Shown here in pieces: positions 5,501 to 64,000 of a DNA stretch of 64,000 nucleotides; positions within the stretch are counted from its first letter, which is position 1, and every line of letters starts with the position of its first letter. The stretch covers positions 15,346,036 through 15,410,035 of the forward strand of contig NC_091237.1 in NCBI RefSeq assembly GCF_040958095.1, read 5' to 3'. The notes under the pieces are model-generated. The model did no database searches, had not been told where the DNA came from, and saw only the letters and a program-made list of their open reading frames with translations. The position numbers and the translations under genes are program-made. The stretch is from Procambarus clarkii. Its lineage: Eukaryota > Arthropoda > Malacostraca > Decapoda > Cambaridae.

Positions 5501-6217
5501 GCGGAACTTTATGCTATTCTCTATGCTCTTCGTCTCCTGCTTTCTCATTGTCAGTCTTCCTTTGTAGTTGTTGTTGACTCTCGTAGTGCCCTCATGGCTC
5601 TCGGGTCCTTTAATCCGGTTCATCCAGTAGTTGTCGAGATCCAGCATTGGCTGTTTCTCGTTCACAGTAAATTTAAGTCGGTTGAGTTTTGTTGGGTTCC
5701 CAGCCATATTGGTGTGTCTTTAAATGAGCGTGCGGATGCTGCCGCCAAGGAAGCTGTCCGCTCTTGTCCCATCTCTCATAAAGGCATTCCGTATTCCGAC
5801 TTTTACCCGGTTATCCATTCCTCAGTCCTTACCCGTTGGCAGACTTCTTGGTTGTCTGTTACTGGTAACAAGCTACGTACTCTTAAATGTTGTGTTTCCT
5901 CGTGGCCGTCCTCCTTCCACCGTAACCGGAGGTGGGAAACAGCTCTGGCGAGGTTGCGTATTGGCCATACTCGCTTAACCCATGGTCACTTGATGGAGCG
6001 CCGCCCTGCTCCTTATTGTCCTAGTTGCATTGTCCCTCTTACGGTCGTGCATGTCCTTCTTGAATGTCCTGACTTCCAGGACGAGCGTGTGTTTTGCTTT
6101 CCGACCGCCCCTCGCGGTCACCTGTCCCTCGATAGACTTCTTGGTGACTCGGATACTTTTGATATCGTTCGCCTTATGCGTTTTTGTTCTCGTATTGGCA
6201 TCCTTGGTGATATTTAG
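2515..6217 (+). CDS. LINE ORF2: endonuclease, reverse transcriptase, RNase H
   Basis: The main open frame (2621-6217, 1198 aa) reads, in order, AP-endonuclease-like domain (GDFN near residue 100; SDHFP near 175), reverse transcriptase (FDLEKAYDTAW, PQGSVLS, YVDD at residues 633-636), RNase H (TDGSE near 928, ELYAIL, DSRSALMAL, WVPSHIG) and a C-terminal Cys-His module (CPSC then H and ECP). The endonuclease start (ILQWNVRGYY, CVCLQEPMLG) lies in another frame from 2515, so one frameshift separates it from the rest. The switch falls near 2690-2715, where a C-run (CACCCCCCAG) is a likely slip site. The enzyme nicks target DNA and copies its RNA there. RT and RNase H show no stop, so this is a fairly young copy. 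Confidence 0.92.
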
Positions 6218-7994: not shown

Positions 7995-8236
7995 GTTAAC
8001 ATAAGAACAAAGGTAGCTGCAGAAGGCCTATTGGCCCATACGAGGAAGCTCCTATCTATAACCATCCAATCCCACTCATATGCTTGTCCAACCCGCGCTT
8101 GAAACAATCGAGGGACCCCACCTCCACCACGTTACGCGGCAATTTGTTCCACAAATCAACAACCCTGTTACTGAACCAGTATTTTCCCAAGTCTTTCCTA
8201 AATCTAAATCTAAATGACTCCTCGTCTGCACATGTT
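7995..8236 (-). mobile_element. LINE 3' fragment, RT C-terminus
   Basis: The minus strand encodes the last residues of a non-LTR reverse transcriptase (FRKDLGKYWFSNRVVDLWNKLP, then LDCFKRGLDKHM), followed by a 3' tail containing TATGGGCCAATAGGCCTTC. The pattern of aromatic residues, RVVDLWN, LP and FK..LD is typical of the C-terminal end of CR1/Rex-like LINE polymerases. A smaller scrap of the same tail lies at about 60210-60275. The fragment stops about 25 bp from the splice acceptor of the next exon. Confidence 0.8.
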
Positions 8237-8261
8237 ATTGTACTCCGTGTGTGTGTTGCAG

Positions 8262-8912
8262 AGAGCAAGGTGTGAACGTGGACAACTCCCGGAAGTCATC
8301 CAAGCTGTACGTGTCATCAGTATCCAGGAGAGACGAGGGTAACTACACCTGTTTACCTTCCAACGCTGCCCCGGCCTCTGTCGTAGTCACCGTCATCCAA
8401 AGTGAGTTTACATCGCCATATCTGTCATCCAAGAGTCTGTATATCTGTCTCTTGCTAGTGGTGTGTGTGTGTGTGTGGTTGGCATATTTAGCAGTAATAA
8501 TAAAGCTATGCCTTATATGTGTGCATATTGTTTATATAGACTGCCTTGTACCGCTGTAAGGGAAATGAAACCAGTCGTGGCAGGATTATTAGAATACACA
8601 AATTCAGAACCATCCGACTGGGGCACTAACCGACTATGCAACATTACACTTCCAGAGGAAAATCCCGCCGGACTACAGCAGGAGACGAACACGGAAAAGG
8701 AGGCATCTTCGGCGTCATCGTCGTCGTCGTCGTCCTCATCCTCGTCAGCCGCGTCATCCTCGTCAGTGTCGGCGTCAAACAGCAGCAGCAGCGGGGCGGG
8801 AGGAAGCCCTGCACCTCTGCCGCCGCCATGTTTCCTTCTGCTGCTGCCTTTGTCGCTCCCTTCCCTACTGCCCCTTATCCTTAACACCACCACCCGCCAC
8901 CTCTTTAGATGA
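8262..8912 (+). CDS. Last two coding exons of a dpr/zig-8-like Ig cell-surface protein (partial gene)
   Basis: Exon A (8262-8401) follows an acceptor ending GTGTTGCAG and ends at AAA|GTGAGT. Exon B (8656-8912) follows ACTTCCAG. Joined, they stay in frame. Exon A encodes the end of an Ig domain with the characteristic D.GNYTC Cys strand followed by PSNAAPASVVVTVIQ. Exon B continues ENPAGLQQ, then a long Ser/Ala-rich linker and a hydrophobic Leu-rich C-terminus (PCFLLLLPLSLPSLLPLIL) that looks like a GPI-anchor signal. Dpr proteins are two-Ig-domain neuronal surface proteins that pair with DIP partners in synaptic matching. In that family Ig2 is likewise followed by a G/E-H/N-P-A motif and a hydrophobic tail. 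The upstream exons lie outside the window or were not recognised. The Ser linker comes from an expanded TCG/TCA codon run. Confidence is good for the Ig domain, moderate for the dpr family. Confidence 0.72.
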
Positions 8913-18364: not shown

Positions 18365-19905
18365 AGGTAAGGTAATTACCAAAAGAAGGCACCAAAGTGC
18401 AAAATAATCAGGGCGCTAAATATCACCAAGAATGCCAATACGAGAACAAAAACGCATAAGGCGAACGATATCAAAAGTATCCGATTCACCTAGAATTCTA
18501 TCGAGGGACAAGTGACTGCGAGGGACGGTCGGAAAGCAAGACACACGCTCGTCCTGGAAGTCAGGACATTCAACAAGGATATGCACAACTGTAAGAGGGA
18601 CAACGCAATTCGGACAATAAGGAGCAGGGCGGCGCTCCATTAAGTGACCGTGGGTTAAGCGGGTATGACCAACCCACAGCAGTGTCCCACCGCCGGTTAC
18701 GGTGGTAGGAGGAAGGCCACGGGGACACACTAAGTTTGAGAGTACGCAGCTTGTTACCAACCACAGAGGACCAACAACCCTGCCAACGGGGAAGAATGAA
18801 TAACAGGATAAAAGTCGGAATAAGGAATACCTTTACGGGAGATGGGACAAGAACGGATAGCTTCCTTAGCGGCAGCATCCGCACGCTCATTGAAACACCA
18901 ATATGGCTGGGAACCCAGCAAAACTCTACCGATTTAAATTTACTAGAAATAAGAAACAGCCAGTGTTGAATCTCAATGACCACCGAATGGACAGGATTAA
19001 AGGACCCTAGAGCCATGAGGGCACTACGACAATCAACTACAACCACAAAGGAGGAATGAGAATGAGAAAGCAAGAGACGAAGAGCTTAGAGAACAGCATA
19101 AAGTTCTGCCGTAAAGACGCTAGCCTCCGAAGGGAGGCGACACATGTAAGTACGGTCAGGAAAAACAACAGAGTAGCCCACACCATCCGCAGACTTAGAC
19201 CCATCAGGGAAGATGGAAATAGAGTGGGAGTGCAAAGAAAAGTGCTCAAGGAAGAGGCTTTTCAGAATTGTAGGAGGGGTAAAGGCTTTAGTAATACAAG
19301 TCAAGGACGTACAAAACTTGGGAAGGGGGACTCTCCACGGAGGTAATGAAGGAACAATACGAGGAGAAACATTAGAAATATGAACAGAAAGAGAATCCTG
19401 TAAGCGAGAGAACTGGACAGAAAGTGGGAGACAATGAAGAGGAACAGGAACCACAGGAGAAGGAAAAGTCAATGCACGACAGAGGCGAGAGGAAGGATGT
19501 TGGAAGGACCGCGCAAGATAGCGAAGACACTAGCGATCACGGCAGTCCTGAAGAGAGAGAAAGCCAGTGTCAACATACAAACTAAGGGCGGGAGTCGAAC
19601 GAAAGCCACCAGAGCCGAGACGCAACCCAGTATGGTGCAAAGCATCAAGATGGCGAAGAGTAGAAGCAGAAGAGTATGCAGGGCAACCATAATTGAGTTT
19701 AGACAGGACGAGAGAGGAGTGCAAATAGAGGAGCGTGCGCCTATCCGCTCCCCAAGAAGTATGGGACAAAACCTTAAGGAGGTTAAGGGCCTTAGAGCAT
19801 TCAACTCGGAGGCAAGAGATATGGGCTGACCAAGACAAGCGAGTGTCAAAGACTAACCCCAAAAGCTTCGCGGAATCCCTGTACACAATGAGATGACCAT
19901 AAAGC
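18365..19905 (-). mobile_element. I-clade LINE, copy 3, 5'-truncated
   Basis: A minus-strand copy of the LINE at 1-6300, covering the end of the RT, RNase H and the C-terminal Cys-His module. On the minus strand it starts at TTTATGGTCATC (about 19905), equivalent to about 4703 of copy 1. It ends in a TTAC-rich tail near 18365. Recognisable peptides are YRDSAKLLGLVFDTRLSW, WVPSHIGV, HTRLTHGHLMERRPAPYC and LVECPDFQDER. The frame changes several times, so it is a dead 5'-truncated insertion, the usual product of incomplete target-primed reverse transcription. Confidence 0.92.
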
Positions 19906-22440
19906 AACAACAATGAAGTAAAGGTCCTTTCAGTAAGAATCTATCATTCACTGAAAGTTGCTGCAGTTAAAAATAAAAGAAAATACAAGTCCCTAGAAAT
20001 AAACAAGCAACCTTTTTGACTAAGGAAAAGAAGGTAGTTATTCTACTGTATAAATCTAAGTATTCACTTAGATAACTGTATCCAAGCATAGAGGTTCCCC
20101 CCCCCCCCTTCCCTTTCAGAAAAACATCTACTTTCGAAAAAGTTTAACATTGGCCAACAAAAATGATTCCAGAACTAAATTGCCTAATACCAGGAACAAC
20201 TGAGAGCCATGACAAACACTGCAACCCTCTCCTACCCCCAAGTCTTATGCTATTTATGATCCAAGGTAATTTGAGATACTATACTGTACTTCCTACAGAC
20301 GACTCTAGTGAGAGGGTGATCTCCTGGCGATTAAATTGAAGCACGATACAGGTGTCAACGAACATCAGTCAGCCCACTTGTCAGCACAGTGGATAACTAA
20401 TGACATCATAATCTGCAGTGTTGTATGCCTCCCTGTGGCCATTTAAATCAATAAAACACAGGGTTGTGACAATGTTTACAGCATAAAGCAAGGTATAGAG
20501 GAATCCTGGAATGCCATGTAATGTGTAGTCCTTGAATGTGCTTTAGGCAACCAAATTGAATAACAACATTTCTGGTGTTCGGCTATATAATCCGAGTTTC
20601 TCATTCGGTATAATGTTTTAAACCTAAATAGGAATTCACTTTAAAGGTCAATTTATTTGGAAAGTGCTAACCAGATTCCAAATTACTGAGCTCTGAAAGT
20701 ACTACAAGGCAAGTTTAACCGAATGAGTGTTTGCCTATCCATACCCCCATGAGGTATGTGACAACACTGAATAAAGAAAGGGTCTTTGAGCATTCACCGT
20801 GCAGGTATTTGACATGACCAATATAGCCAAGTGTTAAAGATCATTCTAAGCAGTTCTGCACAATGCATATACTATCAATTAATATAATTGTACAATGGTG
20901 CTTGGTGGATGATATTTCCTATTAAAACACATTGGACAACTGTTTGTATTAGACATTTTAAACCTACAAATGGTAGCCCTAGATATCGCACTACAGTATT
21001 AATTACAAGATGAACAATGTAAAATCAATACCACAACAGCAAAGGATGACGCCTTTTCAACAACCGACAAACACACAGGTCTAACACCAGCCATCCCCAG
21101 AGAGGACGTCCCAAGCATGTACACCCAACAACTTTACATCACCTTTGCTACCTCACGCGAGCACGCAACAGCATGAGGATGCCATACTCCCAAACCAACT
21201 CCGTGCACTTTGAGGCTTTAACAACTCAACATTTAAAAAGTTGATTTAAAAAATCAAACACCTGAATTTTTCCCTAATTAAATTTACTAGGGAAATGCAC
21301 ACCAAGCCATGAAACTTACAATGAAGATGAACAAACTACACACAACTGTCACCAAACTTCCACATACCACCCCCTCTCACTCCTGCCCTCCCTCCTTAGG
21401 TGCTCTGATTGGCTGAGCACCTGAGCCACCACCACTCACCTCTTGTTGTGAGAGCCTAAAGCATGTTTGGTTGCACTTTAAAACTTCCCGAGTGTACTCG
21501 CCTAATTGTGAGTACCGCCTACCCGGTTCACCATTTTGTTTTTCAATCTACCTCAATTTACCCCTTTACAGTCAAATATTATGCAAAATTCTGTTTAAGA
21601 CTTGTCCCTTCTTAACTTAAATAACTGCTTTGGCCATCTGCAATCTTTCTAGGTGGGTAAAAATGACTCTTGAGGCCAGAAAGGACTTATCAGACGGCGA
21701 TCATAACAATACGGTACACACACAAAATCACAACCTGATATACACCAAGCAGAAAATCCACTGGAGCTGTGAGGCGACATAAACCCTTGCCCAAGGCACT
21801 GGCAGCTGCATACTCTACCACAGTATATTAATGACTTTGTAAAAGTATTACAACCGGATTTCCCCATAAATCACAGCAAGTTTTGAGGCCACTCCTTGAG
21901 TCAACGTCTTACGTAAGACCTACAAGCACTCAGGTGAAGGCTGAAGCAGTTCAACACCATACGCCCCAACTTCAAATACACAGTTGAGAGGCGGGACCAA
22001 AACGTGATTTTCTGTGTGTGCCTGAAGTTGAGGCATACGGTCTTGCTTCACCCTTCACTTTACCCTTCACCGGCGTACTTCAGGGGTTTTATTTAATACT
22101 TGGACTGGCTTCAGTAGGGCCTCCAGACTTTCTGTGGCTTCACAAGTGTCACGTGAATCCCCTGCATAGCAGTGGAACTGCCTTTTCCCTTCACCTTCAA
22201 TGCCTCTGCACTGGAAGTATACATCTACACCAGCCCAGAAGAGTCATCAGTCCTGCCACCTCTCCATACCCCCCAGGGCCTGGCACGGCCTGGTACGACT
22301 CAGAGGCAAGCCGGGCGCCACTGCTAACTGGCAGTTTGTCCCCACAAACAAGCAGTTAGCCGCCTTCAACTGACAGTGGTACAGCTCAACACAAAGGCAC
22401 CGCCAGCCACAACGAGCAGTTTGCTAGTTGACCAGATGTC
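19906..22440. other. Intergenic, no gene seen
   Basis: Contains a C-run at about 20098-20109, a CCAAT-like GATTGGC at about 21406-21412, a short LINE-tail scrap near 21980-22005 (TTGAGAGGCGGGACCAAA), and open frames (for example 22018-22359) with no recognisable domain. Nothing here is supported as a gene. Confidence 0.4.
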
Positions 22441-23079: not shown

Positions 23080-24592
23080 ATCAAACCATCAAATGTGTGG
23101 GATAATCATAGTGCGCTAAATATCACTAACGTCGCCAATACAAGAACAAAAACACATACGGCGAACAATATCAAAGGTATTGAATTTACCAAGAATTTTA
23201 TCGAGGGACAATTGACAGTGAGGGATGGTCGGGAAGCAAGACACGTAAGTCCTGGAAGTCAGGACATGTAGAGACAACGGTTTGGACAATAAGAAGCAGG
23301 GCAGCGCTCCATTAAGTGCCCGTGAGTTAAACGTGTATGACCAATATACAACCTCGCCAGAGCCGTTTCCCACCACCGGTTACGGTGGTAGGAGGAAGGC
23401 CACGGGAACACACTACTCTTAAGAGCACGCAATTTGTTACCAGTAACAGAAGACCAACAACCCTGACAACGGGCAAGAATGGGGAAATGAATAACTGGGT
23501 AAAAGTCATAATAAGGAATACCTTTACGGGAGATGGGACAGGTGCGAATAGCTTCCTTAGCGGCAGTGTCCGCACGCTCATTTAAGAACACACCAATATG
23601 GGTGGGAATCCAGCGAAATTCCACTGTCTTAAATCTACTGGAGATAAGAAACAGCCAATGTTGAATTTCAACTACCAAAGGATGGACTGGATTAAAGGAT
23701 TCTAGAGCCATGAGGGCACTGCAAGTGTCAACTACAAACACAGAGGAGGATTGACACCGAGAAAAAAGTTGATGAAGAGCATAGAGAATAGCATAAAGTT
23801 CTGCCATGAAGATGCTAGTCTTCGGAGGCAGGAGACACAAAGGTGCAGTCAGGAAAAACAACAGAGTAGCCTACACCGTCTGCAGACTTAAGACCCATTG
23901 GTGAAGACGGAAATAGAGTGAAAGTGTGAAGAAAAGTGTTCAAGGAAAAGGTGATTTAGAACTGTAGGAGGGGTAAAAGTTTTAGTCATGTGGGTCAAGG
24001 CTTACAGAATTTAGGAACGGGGACCCCTCCATAGGGGCAAAGACGAAATGACACGAGGGGAAATATTGGTAACACAAACTGAAAGAGCATTTTGTAAGAG
24101 AGACAACCGTACAGAAAGAGATAGGTGGTGAAGGGGAACAGGAACCACAGGATGGGTAAAGGTCAAGGCATGACATAAGCAAGAGTGAGGGTGCTGTAAG
24201 GACCGTGCAAGGTGGAGAAGACAGTAGCGATCATGGCAATCCTGTAGAAACAGGACGCCAGTTTCAACATACAGGCTTAGGGTAGGTGTCGAAGGAAAGG
24301 TACCAGAGCTGAGCCGTAACCCAGTATGATGCAGTGTGTCCAGATGGTGAAGGGTAGAAGGAGAAGCAGACGAGTAAACAGGGCCATAATCGAGTTTAGA
24401 CAGAACGAGAGAGGAATGTAAAGAGAGGAGCAGTGTCGATTAGCTCCCCAAGAAGTATGGGACATGACCTAAAGTTAGTTAAGGGCCTTAGAGCATTCAA
24501 CTCGGACGTAAAAAATATGGGGCGACAAAGACAAACGAGTGTTAAAGATTAGCCCTAAAAGCTTTAGCAGATTCTTTGTACAAAAGGGGATG
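23080..24592 (-). mobile_element. I-clade LINE, copy 4, 5'-truncated
   Basis: Minus-strand copy equivalent to about 4710-6290 of copy 1. It starts (minus strand) at GGTCATCCCC near 24592 and ends near 23080 after GATATTTAGCGCAC. It encodes RNase H (FMAELYAILYALHQL, FRWIPTHIGVFLNERAD) and part of the Cys-His module in separate frames, with several frameshifts. More diverged from copy 1 than copy 3 is. A SINE fragment abuts its 5' end. Confidence 0.9.
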
Positions 24593-26639: not shown

Positions 26640-27330
26640 TCACATTTTCAAACTTGATTCATCTTTTTCCCCCTCGTTCCAGGGGTTTTCTTTAAAAGGT
26701 CTTCATGCAAATGCCTTGGTTTCTCACAAATGATGGCCTCTGAAATGCTATCACCTGCTAACTCCTTGTTGTGTATCCAAATTAATAAAAACTTTTTAAC
26801 ATCCTCAAGTGTTTGTGTTCTTTGTTTCGGGATTGTTGATATGCCTTTTGCCACTTTAATGCTCATAATGTCCTTTTTCTTAGCAAGTACAGTGCATATT
26901 GTTGACATAAATTTGTTGTACTGCCTAGCTAGTTCAACAACCTGTGCACCATTTTGATGTTTATGAATGCTCTCTTGTTTTTCCTCTATGGTCATTCTCA
27001 CATGTGTTTTCTTGGCTTGAACCTTACCACTGGCTTTCTTGGGACTCATGGCAAGATATATCATAACAAATTTTATGTTCAAATAGCCAAAAATCCCAAA
27101 ACAAATGTAATGCTTTACAAAGAATTCAGGCGCGATACTTACTAGGCAGGAGACACTGGTAAACTGAGGCGCGATCACCATGCCACCACGCGCTAGGTCA
27201 GCCCATACGTATATCAACAAACTCCTTTCCCGAGGCAAAGTTTGTAACCCGATTCAAATTTTTCGAAGAAATTAGGCTCGTAACCCGAAAATTTCATAAA
27301 TATTCATTCGTAAGCCGAGGTGTCACTATA
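26640..27330 (-). mobile_element. Tigger/pogo DNA transposon 5' half, broken
   Basis: On the minus strand the end near 27330 reads AGTGACACCTCGGCTTACGA, the typical Tigger terminal inverted repeat next to a TA target. After a 5' leader the frame encodes MSPKKASGKVQAKKTHVRMT, EEKQESIHKHQNGAQVVELA and further CENP-B-like DNA-binding sequence to LHEDLLKKTPGT (about 27050-26650). Both this piece and the plus-strand piece contain the LIKKTP/LLKKTP region, so they come from two different copies lying head to head, not from one copy cut in two. Confidence 0.85.
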
Positions 27331-39028: not shown

Positions 39029-42000
39029 CACAGACGGGGCTTGGTCGGCGGCTGCCGAAGTGTGACGCTCCATGGGACAGTCTTCTGTTCTTTTGAAGTC
39101 TTCCTCCTGCTGTCATCTTCACTAATTTTGTTAGAAGCCATTTCCTCTTCCTTATCTTTAATTTTTCTCCCCTTCCTATCGTGTTTCTAATTCTCATTTC
39201 CTGCTGACCTTTTTGCCATTCTTGATTATTCTTTCGGACATCTTCGGTTTGACACCCCGGTGTTTGAGGAGGCACTCTCTCACCTGTAGAGCTGTGGTAC
39301 CCGACGTTGCGAGCAAGGAGATGCTTTTATTGTCAAACTTTGCCTTTGTTGCTGAACACGATCTTGACGATTCATAAGGTGGCGATTGCGGGGCGTTGAA
39401 TGCCTGTAATTGGCAAAATTCTTCTGCACCATGGCAGATTGGTGGCAGGCAACTTGGATTACGACGAGGATGTTAATTATATCCTTGAGGCCCAAGGCCA
39501 TCGTGTCCTCCACGTGGATACCTTCACTCGACTCCCTCGTGGTCGTTGCCATCAGCCTCTTCGCGTTGTGATAAGTCACGTTTTTGATGGCAAGTCCCTT
39601 CCCGCTGGTGCCAGATGCTCCGTTCAGGAATACATCCCCTCTCCTTGTCTCTGCAGCAGGTGCTGGAGATCGGGGAATGGTCCCTTAAGGTGCACAAGTG
39701 AAATCTGTCTCTTGTGTGGAACCTCGGGTCATGCCAAGATGGAGTGCACTTCTTCCCAAACTCTGCATCATTGTGGTGACGCCCACCCTGCCTTCTACCG
39801 TGCATTACAAATTTGAGGCAGCCAACCTCAATTTGAAGCATAGTAATTATTTGCATTTTCCTGAGGCTAGGCGCAAGGTCTGCAGTCTAACCTCTTTCTG
39901 GCACGTCTAATGTTAGTGTTGCGTTCCCCTTCTCTCCCGCTTTCTCAGTTTTGCAACAGTCTTGAGGCCTTGGATCCCAGACACCACGTTATCTGGTCCT
40001 TTGCGTTCTGGGCCAGAGGGTCCTCCCGGGTCTGTTTGGTGTTTCCTTCCTTCCTTGGTCTTCGTCTCCTGTGCCCTCTCCTCTCTTGGTCCTCACTGCC
40101 TGTCTGTTCAGGCCATTGTCCATCCTCCTCCCCAGTGTTCATGTCTCCCGTTGAAACTGTAGAAGTGGTCACAAAGTATATGCTGATGGTATGCCCCTCT
40201 CTCCATCAAAAGCATAAGCCTGGCTCCTCTCCCTTCCTCTCCATCAGGTAAGAAGGCTTCGATGTATTCCACACCTTCTGACTCGGACACTATCCCTACT
40301 TCTGCTCCTTTCCAGTGGCGGGGTCTTATGTTGCTCATATGAAGGTTTCCTTGAGCCTTGATCCGCTATTGGCTGATGCCCTTATTCCAGTGCCCTCGCC
40401 TGTTTGTCCTAACTGCCTCCAAATCCCTTGACCGCCCATCTCCGTGGCCGCCTCCTGCTCTGGTCCATCCTCCCGCTCCCTTGTCTGACATCTTTGCTAG
40501 CTTTACCTCTGCCCCATGTCACCCATGTTTGCAGCTCTTGCTGGGGCCCGTGTTTCTTTTGCTCTCTTGATCCATCTTTATTTCCTTCGTCCTTACTTTT
40601 TCAGCCGCCCTTTCGGTGTTCTGCGGCCCATATATTTGAGAGTAAATGGTATAGTCTGTTCCATTTCTCTCCCCCGAATGTCCCACTTTCTCTTTCTGAT
40701 CTTAAACACCTGTTGGACTCCTTGCCAGAGACTGCTACTTTTGGGTGAATTTAACTGTTGGCATTACCCTCTGGGGAGATGTTCTGACATACACCAGGGG
40801 CTGCTGCCTTGTCTTATCCTTGTCTCTTCTGAATTCTGGTGAGATAACTTACGTTGACTCCCGCACTCACACACTTAACTGTCTTGATCTTTCTTTCTGC
40901 TTATCTTTTTATTTAGACTTTGCCTGGTGGGTTCTTGATGACCTACATAAGTGAACTTTTCCCCCATCCTTCTCATCTTTTTGCTCTCCCCTCTTTCCCT
41001 AGGTGGCAATTTGCCAGGGCTGACTAGAACCTCTTCACTTTGTATGCTACTCTTTCCATGCTACTCTTTCCGACCTCTCTGATCTGCCCTTCTGAGCCGT
41101 CCTCTTTCATGAGTTTAAGCTGCCCTCTGCTCTGTTCCTCGCTCTACCCTCGGGTATGCGAAAGTGCATTTCCTGGTGGAATGCAGACTGCTGTAAGCGT
41201 GCAGCCTAAAAGAAACTGTCGCAGTAGGACGCCCGTTTTTGTTTCGGAGAGAAAGTGGTGCCTTTCGTTCGACCATATCCAGAGTTTGTATGTTGAGACC
41301 GGCATCCATTCTCTACAGAATCGCAGTGATCGCTATTGTCCTCGCTACTTTGCATGGCCCCTTTAAAACTCTTGCTTATGTCGTACTTTGACCATTACCC
41401 CTCTTGTGGGCCCTGTTCCCTTTCTGTATGGTTGTCTCGCTTGCACGTTTCTCTCTCGGTTCGTATTGAGAATGTTTGTGTCATTCAATACTTGCCCTCA
41501 TGGAGGGTCCCGTCTTCCTAGGTTTTGTAGAACCTTAGCCTTGCAGGTCATTACTCCGTCCTACAGTTCTGAAACGCCTTTTCCTTTCTCACTTTTCTTC
41601 ACACTCTCGCTCCATCTCCGTCGTCACAGATGGGTCTAGGTCTGCTGAGTGTAGGCTACTCGGGTGCAGTCAGGAAACACAACAATGTGTCGCCTTCCTC
41701 AAGAGACTAGCATCTTCACGGCTGAACTTTATGCAATTTTGTTTGCTTTTTGTCAACGGCTTTCTTACTGTAGTTCTTCCTGTTGTAGTTGACTCAAGCA
41801 GTGCTCTCATAGCTCTAGTCATAATCCTAGTGGTCATCGAACTTCAATATTGACTGTTTATCTCCAGCAGATTTAAGACAGAGTTTTGCTGGGTTCCCAG
41901 CCATATTGCTGGGTTCCCAGCCATATTGCTGGGTTCCCAGCCATATTGCTGGGTTCCCAGCCATATTGCTGGGTTCCCAGCCATATTGCTGGGTTCCCAG

Positions 42001-42665
42001 CCATATTGCTGGGTTCCCAGCCATATTGCTGGGTTCCCAGCCATATTGGTGGTTTCCTTAAATGAGTGTGCGGACACTGCCACTAAGGAAGCTGTCCGCA
42101 CCTGTCCCATCTTCTGTAAAGGTATTTCTTATTCAGACTTCTATCCAGTTATTCATTCCTCAATCCTTGCCCATTGGCATGGTCGTTGGTCTTGTTACTC
42201 TTAACAAGCTGCGCACTCTTAAGTGTTCTACCCCCCTCCCCCCCCCCATGGCCTTCCTCCTACCACCGTAACCGGCGGTGGGAAACGGCTCTAGTGAGGT
42301 TATGTATCGGCCAGACCCACTTAACTCACAGGCACTTAATGGAGTGCTGCCCTCATCCTTGTTGTCTAAATTGTATTGTCCTTCTTACGGTCGTGCATAT
42401 CCTTGTTGAATGTCCTGACTTCCAGAATGTTCGTGGGTCTTGCTTCCCGACTGTCCCTCGCGGTCACCTATCCCTTTATAGTATCCTTGGTGAATCGGAT
42501 GCCTTTGATGTTATACAAAAGTGTATAAGGCGAATAAGTGTCTCACAAGTATGAACTTGCACTCGTATTGGCATCCTTAGTAATATTTAGCGTCTTTTGA
42601 ATATCCCGCACGTTTAATGGTGCTATATAGCCTCCCCGGCTTGGTGCCTTGATTTGATAACTTGG
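39025..42665 (+). mobile_element. I-clade LINE, copy 2, internally deleted and rearranged
   Basis: Begins with the same 5' UTR as copy 1 (GGGGCTTGGTCGGCGGCTGC) and ends with the same 3' UTR (GGTGCTATATAGCCTCCCCG). Compared with copy 1 it lacks about 400-1123 (first half of ORF1), about 2430-2700 (ORF1/ORF2 junction) and about 3485-5000 (nearly all the reverse transcriptase; junction near 41253 at a short GGTG microhomology). Still readable are the zinc knuckles (CSRCWRSGNGPLRC, CLLCGTSGHAKMEC), endonuclease pieces, RNase H pieces and the Cys-His tail. The RNase H region holds a 20-bp tandem expansion. Many frame breaks; dead. Confidence 0.92.
41887..42048. repeat. 20-bp tandem repeat inside LINE copy 2
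   Basis: Eight head-to-tail copies of GCTGGGTTCCCAGCCATATT. Copy 1 has this sequence once (about 5692-5711), where it encodes the WVPSHIG motif of RNase H. The unit contains a perfect hairpin, GCTGGG-TT-CCCAGC. The copies look identical, which points to recent slippage or rolling amplification. Confidence 0.95.
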
Positions 42666-47026: not shown

Positions 47027-48733
47027 TTATTGAGGACGGTAGCCGTAGCCGCTGTTAATGTACACAGTGTCCGTCACTGTCCGGTAGTTGGTGAAGGTAG
47101 TGCTCTTGGTGTTAATATTCGTGTGTACCACCGTCGCCGTGTACGTCAACCTGCAAGACAGAATATAAGTCATTAACACGAGGTAATGTTACCAACACCC
47201 CCCCCCCCACACCAAATGCCACACACACACACACACACAGTGTATTCTATACTTACACCTGGGTGGCCGGAGTGGTGTAGGTGTACTGGCTGATTATGTA
47301 GGACGTGTGAGCGAGGGTCACGTAACTTAGTGACGTTTCCGTCACGATCCTGAAGTCAGACTTCACTTCCGTTAACGTTACTGACGTTGGCCGGACAAAG
47401 ACAGAAGTCTGGAGAGCGACCCGGTCATCAACGGGAGTGTGTAGCACCTGTGGTGTAGAAGAGAAGGTTATAAGCAGGAAGATGATGCATGCGTTATTGT
47501 ATTAATATGGCACTGTTACTGTAAACTTACCGAGCGTGTTCCGACGGTGACAGTCTGCACGCTGAAGGACGTTAAGGTTACCGCCACGCTGTTGAAGGCT
47601 TGGTCGGTGACAGTGACGCAACGGTCGATGGTGACAACTTGGGTGACAGTGGGGTGGAAGACATCGTCCACCCTCCTGACCTGAGGGACGCCAACCGGTC
47701 TGACAATACTTCCAGAAGGTCCAGTGCTGCCCACTACAACCCGCGGGACGGTCACCTGGTCCAACCTGCCACCGCTGAATATGGTAGCGGGACCAGCGAA
47801 GACATCCTGGCCGACATTAGGACCGGGACCACCAAAGACACCCTGGCCGACATTAGGACCGGGACCACCAAAGACACCCTGGCCGACATTAGGACCGGGA
47901 CCACCAAAGACACCCTGGCCGACATTAGGACCGGGACCACCAAAGACACCCTGGCCGACATTAGGACCGGGACCACCAAAGACACCCTGGCCAACATTAG
48001 GACCGGGACCACCAAAGACACCCTGGCCGACATTAGGACCGGGACCAAAGACACCCTGGCCGACATTAGGACCGGGACCAAAGACACCCTGGCCGACATT
48101 AGGACCGGGAGCTACATCACTGCCAAAGTCTTGGGGAAAATAATGTCCCTCAGCAAAGCTTCCCCTGTGCTGGCCTGCGTCAGGCAAGAGGCCGCTGCCA
48201 GGGCCCTGGAGGATAAAGGCGTCTTTAGCTGCGATAGGTTGAGCGCTACTCGGCAGGCTCCCGATTGCTTCAATTAATCCAGGAAGTGGTCGACTAGTGT
48301 CCCTGGGAATGCCGTCAAAAGTAGGTGAAGTACTCGAGGACTTCGGGACACCCACGGTCTGCAAAGTTAAAATGAAAAAAAAAAAAACAATTACATTACC
48401 ATTTAAATTATAGTCAAGTTACTTTGAAAAGCACAACTTATAGCGGCACTATAAGTATTTAATTAACAATTTACAAAATAAAATGTTTAGTTTACAACAG
48501 CGAGAGGTTAACTATGCCTGTAATGGTTGGTACTGGCTCGTCACACCGGCCACATAGAAGATAGAGGCCACCAATATTGTAATAGAACACCGCATCTGCA
48601 ATATATAGATTTGTTAAACAACCGAATAGACCCGTTTCGAACAAAAGTTATAGAAGTCAGATTATGACAGCTGAAACTTAAGGCTTTAGGTGCGTTAAAT
48701 CTTAAGGATTACTTAAACTAGTGGGAAGAGAAG

Positions 48734-56128: not shown

Positions 56129-59100
56129 ATGGGCCTGGAGGTCCTCGTCAAGACGGTGTCCTACACGGTAAACACCACCACACTCCTCAGGAGCAGGTGG
56201 TGGTCAACGTTACTCCTGCTGGGGACCTTCCTCCTGCTCCCAGGTAAGCTCAAAACACGTCACATTAGCCAGGTTGCTGATTTTAAGAACTATAATAGCT
56301 CCTTTCACGTTCCCCTATCCACTTCGCCCCCTTCCCTTCATCCGCCACCTCCCAATTCCAGGAGGGACAAGCATCCAGGTGCTGGAGTTCCAGAAGGATG
56401 GAGTGGCGAGTCTGTCAACGATGGCGGTGTACAGAGGCAAGTTGGACCGGGCCTGGAGGATGGCCTCCCTGAGCCTCTGCTGCCGCTTCAAGCTCTTCTT
56501 CCTACACACCAGAGCTACCTTCTTCCAGCTGTGGGACAAGGTCGACAACTGGGACTCCCAGATCAAAGGAGGTCAGTGTCTGGGGGGGAACAGTAGGTCG
56601 TGCAAGGCGGAGGAAACAAGGCGTCGTGAGGAGCCGAGGGTGATGTGAGAAGATAAAGAGGGGAAGGAATTATCAGGGGAAAGCGTCAAGCCATTACAAC
56701 TATATAGCACTGGAAAGGGGGTCAGGATAATGATTTGGGATGGGACGGGGGAAAGGAATGGTGCCCAACCACTTGTGGACGGTCGGTGACTGAACGCCGA
56801 TCTGGATGAAGCTCTACCGTCCAGCACAAGTAGTTGGGCACCATTCCTTTCTCTAAAGGTGGAGCTAAACGAAAAAGAAAATAATATAATTAACAAAATG
56901 GCGTTATGAAATAAAAAAAAAGGCAGAGATTGAGTGGAAACAAATAGGAAACATGACAACATGTTTTCATAACAAAAAAATTGGTGGAACAGTCAACACG
57001 CACAAGGGCTGTGTGGCCAGGCATTAAACCGACCCAGTATAACAGACCTTAGTTACTGAACTGGAAATGTCCATTTGAATCACAGTCCTCCAGAATCCTG
57101 GTATAATAGGGATTTAGACACAGTAATTACTGCTTAACAGAGTTGTGGCTGAACCGGTTCCGGCCTGTCGTCGCCCACCGCTGGCAGTTCCAGATTCTCA
57201 AGGACAAACTCAGGACCTTCAAGTGAGTACCCACCTTCCTAAGCGTACCCCATACTCACCATCTAGCGATTAGCCTCCACCAGAACATTATACCAGTGAG
57301 TAACCACCCACATACCCCATCTTTCCAGCGAGTACTCAATGGCGAGTTATCTAATTCCTCTCCCCCCATCTTCCGGAAGGTACTAACCTTCCCATTATAG
57401 GGTGTTCTACCCATACTCCCATATAGGTAGGTCAACCTACCCAGGCTTTGCGCCCTGGAGAGGCCATTCCAGACCGACAACCAGAGCGCAACTCCATAGT
57501 CTCCTGAGGCTGATGGATGCCTGCTGCTACCTATACTGGGGTGAGAACCTGTCCACTTATCTCTCTCCCCTTGGTTTAGTTTATTATTGTTCCTGCTAAA
57601 CAACCTCACGATAAGATCGATGATAATAACATAGATATTCTTGCCGGTTATTCAAGATAATTATGTTTCAGTATTAGTCCCGTCTCTTTTTATATTGTAC
57701 TCTTTGTTATCATTCCTACTTCTGGGCGTTATCACCTTCCCTTCTAAGCCCTCAGAGGATACTACCTCTGAGGGCAGGGAGGTGATATCCTCTGAGGTAT
57801 CCATCTTCCCTTCCCTGCCTTCAGATGGTACCACCTGTGCTTCACCTACGATCACCTGAAGTATCTCTACAACACCTTCATTGACGGTAAACTCGTCTAC
57901 GAGATGACCTATAACGTTAAGCGCCAGATCTACGGCGACTACGCTCGCCTCGGCCAAAGTGTTCTATCGAAGCATAGTTTCAGCGGCGCTCTGTCACAGG
58001 TGAGAGCTCCAGCGGCGCTCTCCTGCAGGTTAGCCTCTCCAACGACGCTCTATCATAGATAAAGAGCTCCAAATAAGGCACTATCACGGGTATAGTTTTT
58101 TAATCAACATATATTTTGCGCTTGTGTTAATAATGATGATCTGGTAACATCCTTCGACATTAACTCAGTCATAGTACTCCACTTCTTACATTTGGCTCTC
58201 AATTGTCTTTTGTTTACTCTCAGGTTAATGTGTGGGACTCTGTACTGAGCGCCGACGTCATAGCTGACATGGCTGCTTGCAAGACCGACCCTCTGGGTAA
58301 CTATGTATCCTGGGAGGCCGGCTGGGACCTATATAGTGTCACAGAGTACAACACATCTCTCGAATCCTTTTGCAAACAAACTATGGACACGTTTTACTTC
58401 GGGTTTCCAAGGCTCTCAAAAGCTCAAGCATTCTACCAATGCGAAGCTCTGGGCACACATCTGCCTCTTTCCACCAACATGGACGAGTTGCTCCTTTTGT
58501 TCAATGTCTCGGTTCAGTTGTGGTCTGGCTACAAAGATTTGTGTATAACCAACTTCTGGGCCTCAATCATCGACGTGGAGAGAGAAGGCACTTGGGTTAC
58601 CCACTACGATAACGTCCTCGCTCCACTCGCGCTCTGGAATGACGGTGAACCCAACGGAAACTTTTATGAGAACTGCGCAAAAATTGAGCACTGGGGCCTG
58701 TCTGATGTTGACTGTCTTACCGATTTGTTATGCGCTATTTGTGAATTTACCGACCTGCCAATCTTGTCCCTGTTGGGTACCTGTGAGCTGGAAGAACGAA
58801 ATCTCCACTTCATCGCCTACCAGGAAGGTCTGGGAGATCTTTATTTCAAGGGATATGGAGCGTACCACATCAAGAAGGTGGAGGGAGAATGGTTGTGGAT
58901 CAACGTGGTAGAGAACAAGACTCTGGCCAGACTAGACGTCGACGCGCCCTTCAACATGCCCATGGGCCGTCGGGTCTGGCACCTCGAGTCACCAGTGTGT
59001 AACCAACGAGAAGGTCCGCGGACCCTGGTCCTCACGCCTTGCGGACCGGACAGTTACTCTTGCGATGACGCCACCTGCATCCCTCACCAGAATCGATGCG

Positions 59101-61165
59101 ACTTAAAGTACGACTGTCTGGACCACAGTGACGAGGCCGAGTGCCAGCTCGTCTCTCAGCCTGAAGACTACAGGAAGGACCTGCCACCTCGGCAGGGCAA
59201 TGGCGTGAATGCCTCCAGCCTACCAATAACATTACACGTTAATGTCGAGTCTGCCGCAGTTGACACGACACTGATGACCATGCAGCTGTCATACAAAATC
59301 ATCAAGATTTGGATCGACGACCGTCTTAATTACCGCAACTTAAAGATCAACGACAGTCTAAATAAGGTGGACTACACGAGTATGATGAGCCTCTGGTCGC
59401 CCATCATCGCCTTCGTGAACACGGAGGGCCATCAACACACAGTGGTCGACATAGAGTCGTCACTCTACCTGAAGCGCCAGCAGCCCCCAGACCGCAGCGA
59501 CAACAGCGCCCCCGGCGAAGGTGACAACTCGTACACTGTGTTCTGTATCACAGTGAAATGTAGATTATCCTTGCAGTGTTAATATTATACTTAGTTATAC
59601 ATGATCTCACACCCCTATGAAGTACGACTTTAGTATATATAATGTGAAATACAATAAAGAGAAGTGTAGATGAAATATCAGTCTTTGGTTTTATATTATA
59701 TTACAGGTACGAATAATGAGCTCTGATTACCCACTGGATGTTGGTTATTGGCTTACATCAAACTTTATCTTTTTATTCCTAATTTCTGTATTATTTCTAG
59801 CTCAAAGTCACAGTATGTTATAAATCAAGATTAATACTTCCCGAATAACATTATAAATGCACTTGATTCGTGAAATCTTTTTTGGGATTGCCTATTCAAA
59901 ATATTGGCTGTGGAGAGAAAAATCTTGATATTGTGCTAACATAGTTGGCCTGTGTTGGGCAGTGGACCTGTTTCCGGGCAAAAGGAACCCTCTCCTCCTC
60001 TCCAGGAAGTACAGCACCACCTTCATCTGTGACTTCGACCTCATGCTGTACCCGTTTGATGTCCAATTCTGCGACATGCGCCTCCAAATGCTCTCCGGCT
60101 CCAAAGACTTCCTTAATTTCGAAGAGACGAACTCCTCCGCCGCTTACTACGGCAGTGCTGTGCTATTGGAGTACCAGGTCAGTGGCCGAACACTATCAGC
60201 GTAAGAGTTAAGGACACTACAGGAAGGCCTATTGGCCCATATGAGACAGCTCCTATTTATATCCACCCAAACTCATTCATTCTAGAATTATATGTAGGTC
60301 TAGTGTACGCAAATGCTGGGGAGACATCTGCTGGAGATACCCTTTTCTTTACATATCTTTCATGACTATAGAATTAGATATATGTACTGATTCTCCTGAA
60401 ACCACATAAGCTCCTCAGGTCGTCTGTCTCTTACTCTTTTTCACCTTTATCTCACTTCACTGAACGCAATCACTCATTATGTCACTAATGAATTTTTGAA
60501 AGTTTTTCGTCTCCCTGTGTGTGTAGGTCCAGCAGCCGAAGCTCGTCTATGAGCACAGCGGGGAGTTCAGTGTGATGAAGGTTCGGTTATGGCTCCAGCG
60601 ACGCTCGGGCTACGCTATCCTCAACATCTACATGCCCTCCATCATCATCCTGGCCATCTGCTACCTCACACTCTTCCTCCGTCCCCACGCTCTCGATGTT
60701 CGACTCATGACAACGCTGACCTCTCTCCTCGTCTTGGCCACACTCTTTACCCAGGTAAGAGGGAGAGGGGGCCCAGGCAAGAGTTTAGGGAAAGCCTTTT
60801 TCACGTTTGTACTATATCGAATCTCTGACCATCAGGTCTCGTCGTCCCTGCCCAAGACGTCGTACTTCAAGATGGTGGACGTGTGGCTCCTCTTCTGCAT
60901 CGTCATAAGCTTCATGATCATCATCTTCCACGTCGTCATCGACTACTCCCTAACCGAAGGCGGGGACGAGGTGTCCTCCCCCGCCATGAAGCCCGTGACC
61001 AAGGTCCAGCCCTGGACCACACACTCCCGGCAGTCTGGCAAGGTCTACGAGACCTCCGTCAGCCTCAGCAAGTACTCCAAGAACCTCATCACTTTCGCCC
61101 GATGGATGACCGTTGGCATCTTCACTCTCTTCAACTTAATCTATTGGTCGTACATCTTTGGCTAA
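56129..61165 (+). CDS. Chimeric Cys-loop ligand-gated ion channel with pentraxin, C-type lectin and LDLa modules (883 aa, 8 exons)
   Basis: Exons: 56129-56243, 56362-56571, 57141-57222, 57825-57999, 58224-59520, 59963-60177, 60527-60754, 60836-61165. All junctions are GT-AG and the total of 2652 nt stays in frame. Domains: signal peptide (WWSTLLLLGTFLLLPG, about residues 24-39); pentraxin/LamG-like (about 45-210, with FKWYHLCFTYD and SGALSQVNVWD); C-type lectin (244-370, EPN at 336-338, then WGLSDVDC and LCAICEF); a linker domain; LDLa (467-501, six Cys with DHSDEAEC); Cys-loop ligand-binding domain (from about 527; LW.P; Cys649 and Cys663 thirteen residues apart with YPFDVQF); M1 727-749, M2 756-774, M3 789-811, a short M3-M4 loop, and M4 865-882 at the C-terminus. 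It should form a pentameric plasma-membrane channel with a large extracellular recognition head. M2 lacks the anion-type PARV and has D-V-R instead. Ligand and ion are unknown. The start ATG is the first in frame with the signal peptide. Confidence 0.88.
56660..56860 (-). mobile_element. tRNA-derived SINE in intron 2 of the channel gene
   Basis: The minus strand reads CTGGACGGTAGAGCTTCATC then CAGATCGGCGTTCAGTCACC, GTGGTTGGGCACCATTCC and TATAGTTGTAATGGCTTGAC. The first two segments resemble tRNA boxes A and B. Best preserved member of the family in this window. A second, partial head (AGTAGTTGGGCACCATTCC) follows on the plus strand, giving a small palindrome. Confidence 0.8.
59653..59658 (+). 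terminator. AATAAA in intron 5 of the channel gene
   Basis: If the donor at 59521 is skipped, exon 5 continues for 20 more codons to a TAA at 59580-59582, and AATAAA follows 70 bp later. This would end a transcript encoding pentraxin, lectin, LDLa and only the start of the ligand-binding domain, without membrane helices. Confidence 0.4.
60200..60280 (-). mobile_element. LINE tail scrap in intron 6
   Basis: GAAGGCCTATTGGCCCATATGAG then CTCCTATTTATA matches the 3' tail of the fragment at 7995-8236. Confidence 0.65.
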
Positions 61166-61670: not shown

Positions 61671-62213
61671 TCCTGAGCTGCACAAGGCGTTGAGTAAAGT
61701 GCCCTGAGTTGCACAAGGCGTTGAGTAAAGTGCCCTGAGCTACACAAGGTGTTGAATAAAGGGCCCTGAGTTGCACAAGGCGTTGAGTAAAGTGTCCCGA
61801 GCTGCACAAGGCGTTGAGTAAAGTGCCCTGAGCTGCACAAGGCGTTGAGTAAAGTGTCCTGAGCTGCACAAGGCGTTGAAAAAAGGGCCCTGAGCTGCAC
61901 AAGGCGTTGAGTAAAGTGCCCTGAGCTACACAAGGTGTTGAATAAAGTGCCCTGAGCTGCACAAGGCGTTGAGTAAAGTGCCCCGAGTTGCACAAGGCGT
62001 TGAGTAAAGTGTCCTGAGCTGCACAAGGCGTTGAGTAATGTGCCCTGAGCTGCACAAGGCGTTGAGTAAAGTGCCCCGAGCTGCACAAGGCGTTGAGTAA
62101 AGTGCCCTGAGCTGCACAAGGCGTTGAGTAAAGTGCCCTGAGCTGCACAAGGCGTTGAGTAATGTGCCCTAAGCTGCACAAGGCGTTGAGTAAAGTTCCC
62201 TGAACTGCACAAG
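61671..62213. repeat. 31-bp minisatellite, about 17-18 copies
   Basis: Unit CACAAGGCGTTGAGTAAAGTGCCCTGAGCTG (31 bp from successive CACAAGG starts). Variants: GAATAAAGGGCC, GTCC for GCCC, GTAATG. It lies about 500 bp after the channel stop codon. The period is not a multiple of 3, so overlapping minus-strand frames of about 195 codons are artefacts. Confidence 0.95.
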
Positions 62214-63229
62214 GCATATTTATTAAAAAATGTCCACACACGTCTCCGATTTCAACAATATCCTCCTGTCTTACCTTGCGCCCCTGAGAGCCGCGGTGAG
62301 AATAACTTCACAACAATACTTGTACCCAGAGTCATCAGGCTCTAACGTGCAGATCAGGAAAAATAACGTGTGTTAGTACATTTTATTGTCCTTTATACTG
62401 ACTAGGGGTGAAGAATAACTTAAGTGGATATAAATATTGGAATGCATAAATACTGGTGTATATGTAGATGATATCCTAGTAACGTTGAGGGTAGCGAAAG
62501 CCTATAGTTTGTTGAGGCGGCGGGAGGCGTTTTCAGAATGTTAATGATCTTAACACCTATTAACCACAATAGATGAACAGAGACATTGGGTAAAAGGGAA
62601 CGTGCCCAACCATTTCTGTCCCACATAGACCTGGGCGCAGCCTGGTACCCCTCAAAGTAGTATACATATTTATTACAAATTTCACCAGTCATTGTTGATA
62701 GTTTGATCAACTGTCTTTGACATGGATTATTTGCCAAGAGGAATTATCAAAACAGTGCCAAGCCGAGATTGCAAGAAGCATCATAGTGCTTATTTTTAAT
62801 AAAATGCAAATTTGCATGTATGTGTAGTAAGTGGTAACTGCTGTTTAGATAGCGGTTTTTTTTCAAGGATCACTACTATCACCCTCCTAAACCTTGCCAA
62901 AACGCTACTAGATGTTTACCTAACATCAATGAATAAGCGGTGCGCGTCGCATACGAAAATGTAAACAAAAAATAAAAAATATCCAGCTATCGCAGGCGAT
63001 TCTTTTCCAAACAGGATTCACTCACTCAAGCAGCACACAACACCCGTTGCAGTTTCTTCCAACAATTTTTCGCAGCGTGTGTTTATGGCTGAAGTGAAGT
63101 AAGCTCTGTAAGAACCAACTTGGAGATATATTTTAGCAAAGTCTTACAGCTTTTGTTGCCACGGTTAGAATGTCAGAAGATGGGTGGAACAGCGACTGTT
63201 TTTAAACCTCCTTAAGAAGCATGTGTGTT
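62214..63229. other. Intergenic, no gene seen
   Basis: Contains a fragment (about 62595-62620, GAACGTGCCCAACCATTTCTG) resembling the SINE body, and AT-rich sequence. It may include the 3' UTR of the minus-strand gene that follows. Confidence 0.4.
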
Positions 63230-64000
63230 TCAGCTGCAGGTACAGTGTGATGGTGGACAGAATGATGGTACGTGGAAACAGTTCTGGACGCACCACCCGT
63301 CCATGCCGGGGACCCTCTGCCACACACCCACTGCTCTACAGTCCTTAGACGGCTCCGACGGGGAAGAGACAGGCACGGGTGTGCTCGAACGAGGCCTCGA
63401 TGGACGGGACTTGCCTAGACGAGGCTTCGATGGGCGAGATTTGCCCGGACGAGGCTTCGATGGATGATATTTGCCCGGACGAGGCTTTGATGGACGAGAT
63501 TTGCCCGGACGAGGCTTCGATGGACGAGGTCTCCTAGTTAAGGACGGAGAGCTGGAGGGTATAGAAGTGTGTGTGGTCGGTCTCCGCGTGCTTCCGAGGG
63601 TGGGCCTGAAAGTTGTTGTAAATAAGGGCGCGAGGCTCGCCTTCGGGTACCAGCTGTAGGTATAGCCCTGACCTCCAGCGTCCGCGCCATTCTCCAAAAG
63701 GCTAGTCACCCCAACACTCGACCTGCCGTACAAAAAAATTGTTTTAAGCCTCAGCTAACCTTTGCAGCCACCCGTCTTAAGAATTATCCTACCGCTATAA
63801 AACCATACTGGCTTAACGGTTCCTCTCCATAACTACTTAATCATTTCAGTTCGTACATTGGAAAAAGATAAATACATGGAATATCTGGAGTTTACATCAC
63901 ATGTAGGCCGGAGCAGATGTAAATTATACACAACATTATTCGCGCGCACACAGCATTTCTGTGTACCTGGAGGCGAGCACACACGCTGTCAATACCTCAC
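63230..64000 (-). CDS. Secreted Pro/Arg/Lys-rich protein with Cys-rich C-terminus (partial, last two exons)
   Basis: The minus-strand penultimate exon (64000-63967, continuing beyond the window) ends TCCAG|GTACAC. The last exon (63722-63230) follows TACGGCAG|. They join in phase as VLTACVLAS-RSSVGVTS. The last exon holds GGQGYTYSWYPKASLAP, a Ser/Thr-rich stretch, about six repeats of KPRPGKSRPS and a Cys module of the form C.A.G.W....GMD.WC..NC......CP..HCTC just before the stop. I associate that Cys pattern with C-terminal modules of secreted, possibly chitin-associated arthropod proteins, but I cannot name the family. The hydrophobic VLTACVLAS may be the end of a signal peptide. The basic repeats could bind acidic polysaccharide; that is inference. 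Confidence 0.65.

Follow-up and report, generated by a model that had tools for sequence, protein, structure and literature searches.

A crayfish gene family joining a pentraxin, C-type lectin and LDLa head to a Cys-loop channel subunit

A single gene that joins a lectin-bearing recognition head to a Cys-loop channel subunit was identified in a stretch of 64,000 nucleotides from the crayfish Procambarus clarkii (RefSeq assembly GCF_040958095.1, contig NC_091237.1, positions 15,346,036 to 15,410,035, forward strand). We refer to this whole stretch as the window and use its own numbering. The gene extends from 56129 to 61165. As a preliminary description of the window had proposed, its eight exons (Table 1) join in phase into one frame of 883 codons plus stop, with GT-AG borders in all seven introns. 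When the 883-residue protein was used to scan the window, these eight exons alone were matched. The modules are arranged in the order pentraxin, C-type lectin domain (CTLD), an unnamed module of about 95 residues, LDLa and Cys-loop channel. The CTLD, the LDLa module and the first half of the ligand-binding domain all lie in exon 5, so that the fusion does not depend on the join between exons 5 and 6. The assignment of lectin and channel to one gene, also put forward in the preliminary description, is confirmed at the genome level, and we are highly confident from the sequence that the fusion gene is real and translated.

Table 1. Exons, modules and near-identical tract of the fusion gene (window coordinates; aa, residues of the predicted protein).
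Feature	Position	Strand	Remarks
Exon 1	56129–56243	+	Start codon, hydrophobic N-terminus (hydropathy); GT donor, in phase
Exon 2	56362–56571	+	Pentraxin-like domain, first part; codons 40–90 near-identical to paralogue
Exon 3	57141–57222	+	Pentraxin-like domain, continuation
Exon 4	57825–57999	+	Pentraxin-like domain, WYHLC; LGQSVLS in place of calcium-site motif
Exon 5	58224–59520	+	Pentraxin end, CTLD, unnamed module, LDLa, first half of ligand-binding domain; one open frame
C-type lectin domain, aa 261–369	58422–58748	+	EPN at aa 336–338
Unnamed module (about 95 aa), aa 371–466	58752–59039	+	Between CTLD and LDLa
Gene-conversion-like tract, codons 389–487	58806–59102	+	Most of unnamed module plus LDLa; shared with C88:15655156
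LDLa module, aa 466–501	59037–59144	+	Pfam 34.1 bits, cut-off 24.1; six cysteines
Cys-loop ligand-binding domain, first half	59163–59520	+	Neur_chan_LBD aa 508–686, Pfam 45.9 bits
Exon 6	59963–60177	+	Second half of ligand-binding domain; Cys loop C649 (60028–60030) to C663 (60070–60072)
Exon 7	60527–60754	+	End of ligand-binding domain, M1, M2; R0′ 60701–60703, D-2′ 60695–60697
Exon 8	60836–61165	+	M3, intracellular loop, M4 (weakly supported), stop

The gene structure is not a chance assembly, as it recurs in the nearest paralogue, which lies on the same contig about 250 kb farther downstream (C88:15655156; contigs and loci are named by our handles, C and L). Exons 2–8 were found there (L040, L041), separated by six introns with GT-AG borders and the same phases; the acceptor of the seventh intron is also present. 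Length matches the window gene in five of these seven exons and deviates by 6 and 24 bases in the remaining two; the proteins are 68.3% identical over 836 aligned codons. No counterpart of exon 1 turned up in the stretch examined, which leaves exon 1 as the least certain of the eight. Its hydrophobic stretch (residues 28–46 by hydropathy) extends into exon 2, and the N-terminus is a probable signal peptide.

The head begins with a pentraxin-like domain, in which Laminin_G_3 and Pentaxin were both identified above their Pfam cut-offs at residues 129–226 (Pentaxin 29.5 bits, cut-off 25). The best solved relative of this part is neuronal pentraxin 2 (E 2.3e-7), whose EQD calcium-site stretch is unmatched in the window copy. 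The calcium site of pentraxins carries a motif of the Q-E-Q-D type. Four distant paralogues (L030, L031, L033 and L039) have kept it as GQ[ED]QD, and the corresponding position reads GMEQD in L032 and GLEQD in L035.

For the CTLD, the best solved relative is DC-SIGNR (E 7e-5, over part of the domain). DC-SIGNR and DC-SIGN, which are not channels, have the EPN motif in common with the window gene. In C-type lectins EPN is the mannose-type and QPD the galactose-type motif, and the residues of the sugar and calcium site 2 are E, N, E, N and D. Four of these five are present in the window copy, including EPN, E and D. Motifs were tallied over 27 aligned rows, one from the window gene and 26 from other loci, some of which are near-identical copies. 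Of these rows, 18 have EPN as sugar motif and four have QPD, L031 and L039 among the latter; EPD, QPN, DPN, APN and DSV occur once each. The residue seven places after the start of the motif is E in 22 of the 27 rows, and at the WND position 26 rows keep the D. Lectin_C was above the Pfam cut-off in six of eight paralogue frames tested and fell short in L011 and L025. The head probably binds glycans in some members of the family.

The module between CTLD and LDLa had escaped the preliminary description. It is conserved, with seven invariant columns across 15 diverse rows. No Pfam family was assigned to it in the window gene; in 15 members only three isolated weak Pfam matches appeared, in one member each (best E 0.037), and comparison of its profile with solved structures revealed no relative (best E 0.32). 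In the LDLa module that follows, each of the six cysteines is conserved in all 27 rows. Single-sequence fold prediction of exon 5 was uninformative (mean predicted local distance difference test score 33).

The remainder of the protein is a Cys-loop channel subunit. Neur_chan_LBD and Neur_chan_memb (32.9 bits, residues 732–813) are each above cut-off, the cysteines of the Cys-x13-Cys loop are C649 and C663, and the membrane segments M1–M3 were identified from Pfam and from an alignment with glycine receptors. The preliminary description had called the channel complete. This holds for the Cys loop and M1–M3, whereas M4 lies below the hydropathy threshold and was seen only as a 1.6-bit continuation of the glycine receptor alignment. 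Among solved structures, glycine receptors are closest to the channel half (beta subunit, E 6.4e-27). With a family profile, glycine and γ-aminobutyric acid type A (GABA-A) receptors scored best, with a pH-gated chloride channel (PDB 9rgm, 9rgn, 9rgp) close behind. This last channel is related to the channel half, but scored below the best glycine and GABA-A receptors each time (9rgm, E 5.8e-15, and about 3e-24 by family profile). The window gene resembles glycine and GABA-A receptors in its channel half, in the cysteine pair 13 residues apart and in R0′ of M2; it differs from them in the loop D arginine, in E-S-F of loop B and in the residues at -2′ and -1′. These receptors are not known to carry a head of lectin, pentraxin or LDLa modules.

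The loop D arginine and E-S-F/Y of loop B are agonist-site residues of glycine and GABA receptors. In the alignment with glycine receptor beta, the window gene has I for the loop D arginine, K for the loop D phenylalanine and Q-M-L for E-S-F. The loop D arginine is found in none of the 23 rows (of the 27) with a letter at this position, and E-S-F in none of six channel rows. Because these residues are missing, glycine, GABA and glutamate appear unlikely to gate the channel, and the head or some other small ligand would be a likelier trigger. A truncated loop C was dropped as a further peculiarity: although the aligned glycine receptor has a longer loop, that of the window gene is by eye about as long as in GABA-A beta.

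The pore was analysed in the same six channel rows. R0′ of M2 is present in all of them, position -2′ is D, E or N, and position -1′ is V, A, D or E. The usual motifs at -2′, -1′ and 0′ are P-A-R in anion channels and G-E-K in cation channels, the latter having E at -1′. With D-2′, V-1′ and R0′ in the window gene, we consider it an even question whether the pore of this subunit would carry chloride rather than cations. The rows from C9 and C6 (L048 and L049) have D or E at -1′ beside R0′, and head matches adjoin both (C9:12807006–12809302 and C6:24410535–24411164). Members of the family may therefore differ in ion selectivity, and cation-type pores are possible in these two.

The size of the family, also absent from the preliminary description, was estimated by searching the genome (4.03 Gb in 2308 contigs). 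The head searches score the best candidates only, so that all counts are lower bounds. At least 56 matches were obtained with the 883-residue protein and at least 89 with the frame of the distant paralogue L031 as query. A place was counted if a single match crossed LDLa and reached well into the ligand-binding domain. This gave at least 57 distinct places on at least 34 contigs, window gene included; such places are not proven genes, and near-identical pairs among them may be recent duplicates or unmerged haplotypes. One such pair is C88:15655156 and C28:23828739, with a synonymous divergence (dS) of 0.022. Matches run from the CTLD in at least 29 of these places (thus at least 28 besides the window gene) and from the pentraxin in at least 12, the latter with the L031 query only. 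Three of the CTLD-spanning places (C51:3731188, C51:3778073 and C29:9926227) contain in-frame stops in every search that lists them. Two others (C73:25179038 and C10:34524647) show stops with the 883-residue query and none with L031.

A query with the C-terminal half of the channel gave 133 matches in the genome. On the strand of the head, such a match follows downstream within 20 kb in 48 of the 57 head places and within 130 kb in 53. The controls were 6 upstream on the same strand and 0 downstream on the opposite strand at 20 kb, and 10 and 1 at 130 kb. Among the eight paralogue frames, Pentaxin, Lectin_C, LDLa and the ligand-binding domain are all above cut-off in one uninterrupted frame in three (L030, L033 and L039). 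In L031 the LDLa score is 0.1 bit below cut-off, and in L025 no ligand-binding domain was recognized by Pfam. Stops occur in some paralogues, for example L029 and L032. The window gene clusters with L011 and L012 in the trees of the CTLD (99/97), of the unnamed module with LDLa (100/98) and of the ligand-binding half (100/99). A giant fusion at C45:16535884, with an open frame of 2174 residues, was rejected; the part fetched contains a run of N.

For the window gene and L011, the ratio of non-synonymous to synonymous divergence (dN/dS, method NG86) is 0.16 both in the CTLD and in the half of the ligand-binding domain contained in exon 5; it is 0.20 in LDLa and 0.24 in the unnamed module. In the CTLD and the ligand-binding half dS is about 2 and thus near saturation. 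Other pairs gave ratios of 0.00 to 0.55 where defined; the ratio is undefined where dS is zero or saturated. These low ratios indicate purifying selection on the head and on the ligand-binding half in exon 5.

Near-identical tracts were revealed by comparison with the nearest paralogue. Over codons 389–487, 293 of 297 nucleotides are identical, and a second near-identical tract was found in exon 2 (148 of 153 nucleotides). Four-fold degenerate sites are identical at 44 of 45 positions in the tract of codons 389–487, compared with 100 of 183 outside both tracts (Fisher p 2e-9, a value that is too small because the borders were chosen after inspection). The longest identical run between the two genes is 158 nucleotides, while 2000 codon shuffles never gave more than 53. 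The near-identical tracts look like recent gene conversion. Conversion is also suggested by the cluster on C78, where L020 pairs with L022 in the CTLD tree (98/89) and with L021 in the ligand-binding tree (92/87, below the starred level), and where dS between L018 and L020 is 0.96 in the CTLD and 0.10 in the ligand-binding half, a roughly tenfold difference. L032 and L035 show the opposite contrast (0.12 in the CTLD and 0.67 in the ligand-binding half), which argues that conversion is not confined to one module. A general rule that the CTLD diverges faster, as seen in the C78 and C73 copies, was discarded on account of this reversal.

We favour a reading in which the gene encodes a Cys-loop subunit with a large recognition head on its extracellular face, and glycans act on the channel or determine its location; the chances that it holds appear to us balanced. 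By analogy with the Cys-loop family, five subunits would form a pentamer, and their five CTLDs would be ringed above the pore, where they could bind glycans in a multivalent and calcium-dependent manner. Glycans of a microbial surface or of the animal's own matrix might then alter gating directly or hold the channel at sugars, and the classical agonist pocket might not be used for glycine, GABA or glutamate; these last steps are less sure. A lectin-gated or microbe-sensing role would be compatible with the EPN motif and with the loss of agonist residues, neither of which proves it. That binding to the head changes channel activity is a suggestion to which we give slightly less than even weight, and anchorage of the channel to sugar-rich surfaces by the head would be equally simple. 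If the head does act on the pore, a single polypeptide would link recognition of an immune type directly to electrical signalling. With so large a family, a mixture of EPN and QPD and the loss of agonist residues, this question is concrete and could be tested on few clones. A bolder version is rather unlikely in our view: a pentamer gated directly by glycans, opening or closing on multivalent binding of sugars to its five lectin heads without a classical transmitter, in which EPN and QPD specificities diversify while conversion homogenizes other modules, so that a nerve or epithelial cell would read glycans of microbes or tissue electrically.

Several observations weigh against the favoured reading. 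The calcium motif of the pentraxin is lost in the nearest paralogue as well as in the window gene. Of the domains named in the preliminary description, Pfam recovered pentraxin, LDLa and channel domains in the 883-residue protein, but Lectin_C remained below cut-off in the window copy (19.5 versus 22.6 bits), and S replaces the N of WND, a calcium-site residue. The pore motif of the window gene matches neither the usual anion nor the usual cation motif. Nine of the 57 head places have no downstream channel match within 20 kb, and a close channel relative at C83:5888770, itself among the six channel rows, has no head match nearby in either head search. Finally, the case is built from genome sequence throughout, and coupling of head and pore would be a step beyond it.

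The head could instead be an anchor, with lectin and LDLa tying an ordinary channel to sugars of the matrix or synapse while a soluble ligand gates the usual pocket. Extracellular lectin and LDLa modules are generally known as common parts of adhesion proteins, and the Cys loop and receptor domains are retained; the absence of the loop D and loop B residues throughout the rows analysed removes the best-known amino-acid ligands, but leaves amines, protons and metal ions as candidates. We regard this explanation as possible but not probable. The same missing residues, together with the unusual D-2′ and V-1′, would also suit a subunit with a decoy or regulatory role, which would join other Cys-loop subunits in a channel and contribute no pore of its own. 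As M1–M3 are recognizable and many relatives have the same architecture, some of them probably channels, this seems improbable.

Two further explanations concern the gene itself. The first is that a secreted lectin and a channel were merged by wrong prediction, for which no evidence was found. One exon carries both parts, one match spans them in at least 28 other places (three with stops), the trees of the parts agree for the window gene, and a channel half follows most heads. Separate genes are thus rejected at the genome level, and we give this explanation almost no weight. A pseudogene or an assembly artefact might be suspected from the paralogues with stops and from near-identical copies that may be unmerged haplotypes. 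The window copy, however, is fully open with intact splice sites, and its dN/dS relative to L011 is below 0.3 in each exon 5 module, which makes this origin very improbable too.

The preliminary description had presented the gene as an unusual biological system. In this genome it is one of a large paralogous family, and the class may have been announced before: Polinski and colleagues reportedly described in 2021, in the American lobster genome, a novel class of chimeric receptors combining pattern recognition with neurotransmitter binding. The architecture of the window gene fits this description, and the gene would then be a further case of the lobster class; otherwise it would stand as a variant of Cys-loop receptors. 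A term search of some papers citing the lobster genome paper did not find the word 'chimeric', and among the listings and term passages of a literature search no paper was recognized as describing such chimeras. According to Jaiteh et al. (2016; PMC4795631), links of the Cys-loop receptor architecture to other domains had until then been observed at the genome level only. For the European lobster genome, a 2026 report (PMC13286009) mentions expansions of ligand-gated channels, C-type lectins and pentraxins. In annotation, one gene of the present kind could be counted at once as ligand-gated channel, C-type lectin and pentraxin.

The window contains several other features. Just downstream of the channel gene, at 61672–62215, a 31-bp unit is repeated in tandem 17.5 times. 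Two open frames on the reverse strand are also repetitive, both with no Pfam match: one of 300 residues at 47519–48418, in which a 36-bp unit (a 12-residue repeat) recurs about nine times, and one of 174 residues at 63233–63754, with about five 30-bp units encoding a basic, proline-rich 10-residue repeat. The end of an immunoglobulin domain, possibly an exon of the immunoglobulin superfamily, lies at 8218–8556 (+), where three Pfam immunoglobulin matches are all below cut-off. A frame of 1205 residues at 2600–6214 (+) comprises endonuclease, reverse transcriptase and RNase H, as in a retroelement of the non-LTR (long terminal repeat) type. By eye, similar frames occur at 18419–19940 (-), 23262–24439 (-) and 39400–42551 (+); the part tested from these, 18573–19085, had no Pfam match. 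Outside the window, a long frame beside a C73 copy of the family (L045, 486–2129, -) also resembles by eye a retroelement reverse transcriptase. The frame at 26651–27253 (-) matched the CENP-B N-terminal DNA-binding domain, which occurs in pogo-type transposases, at 22.0 bits against a cut-off of 21.2.

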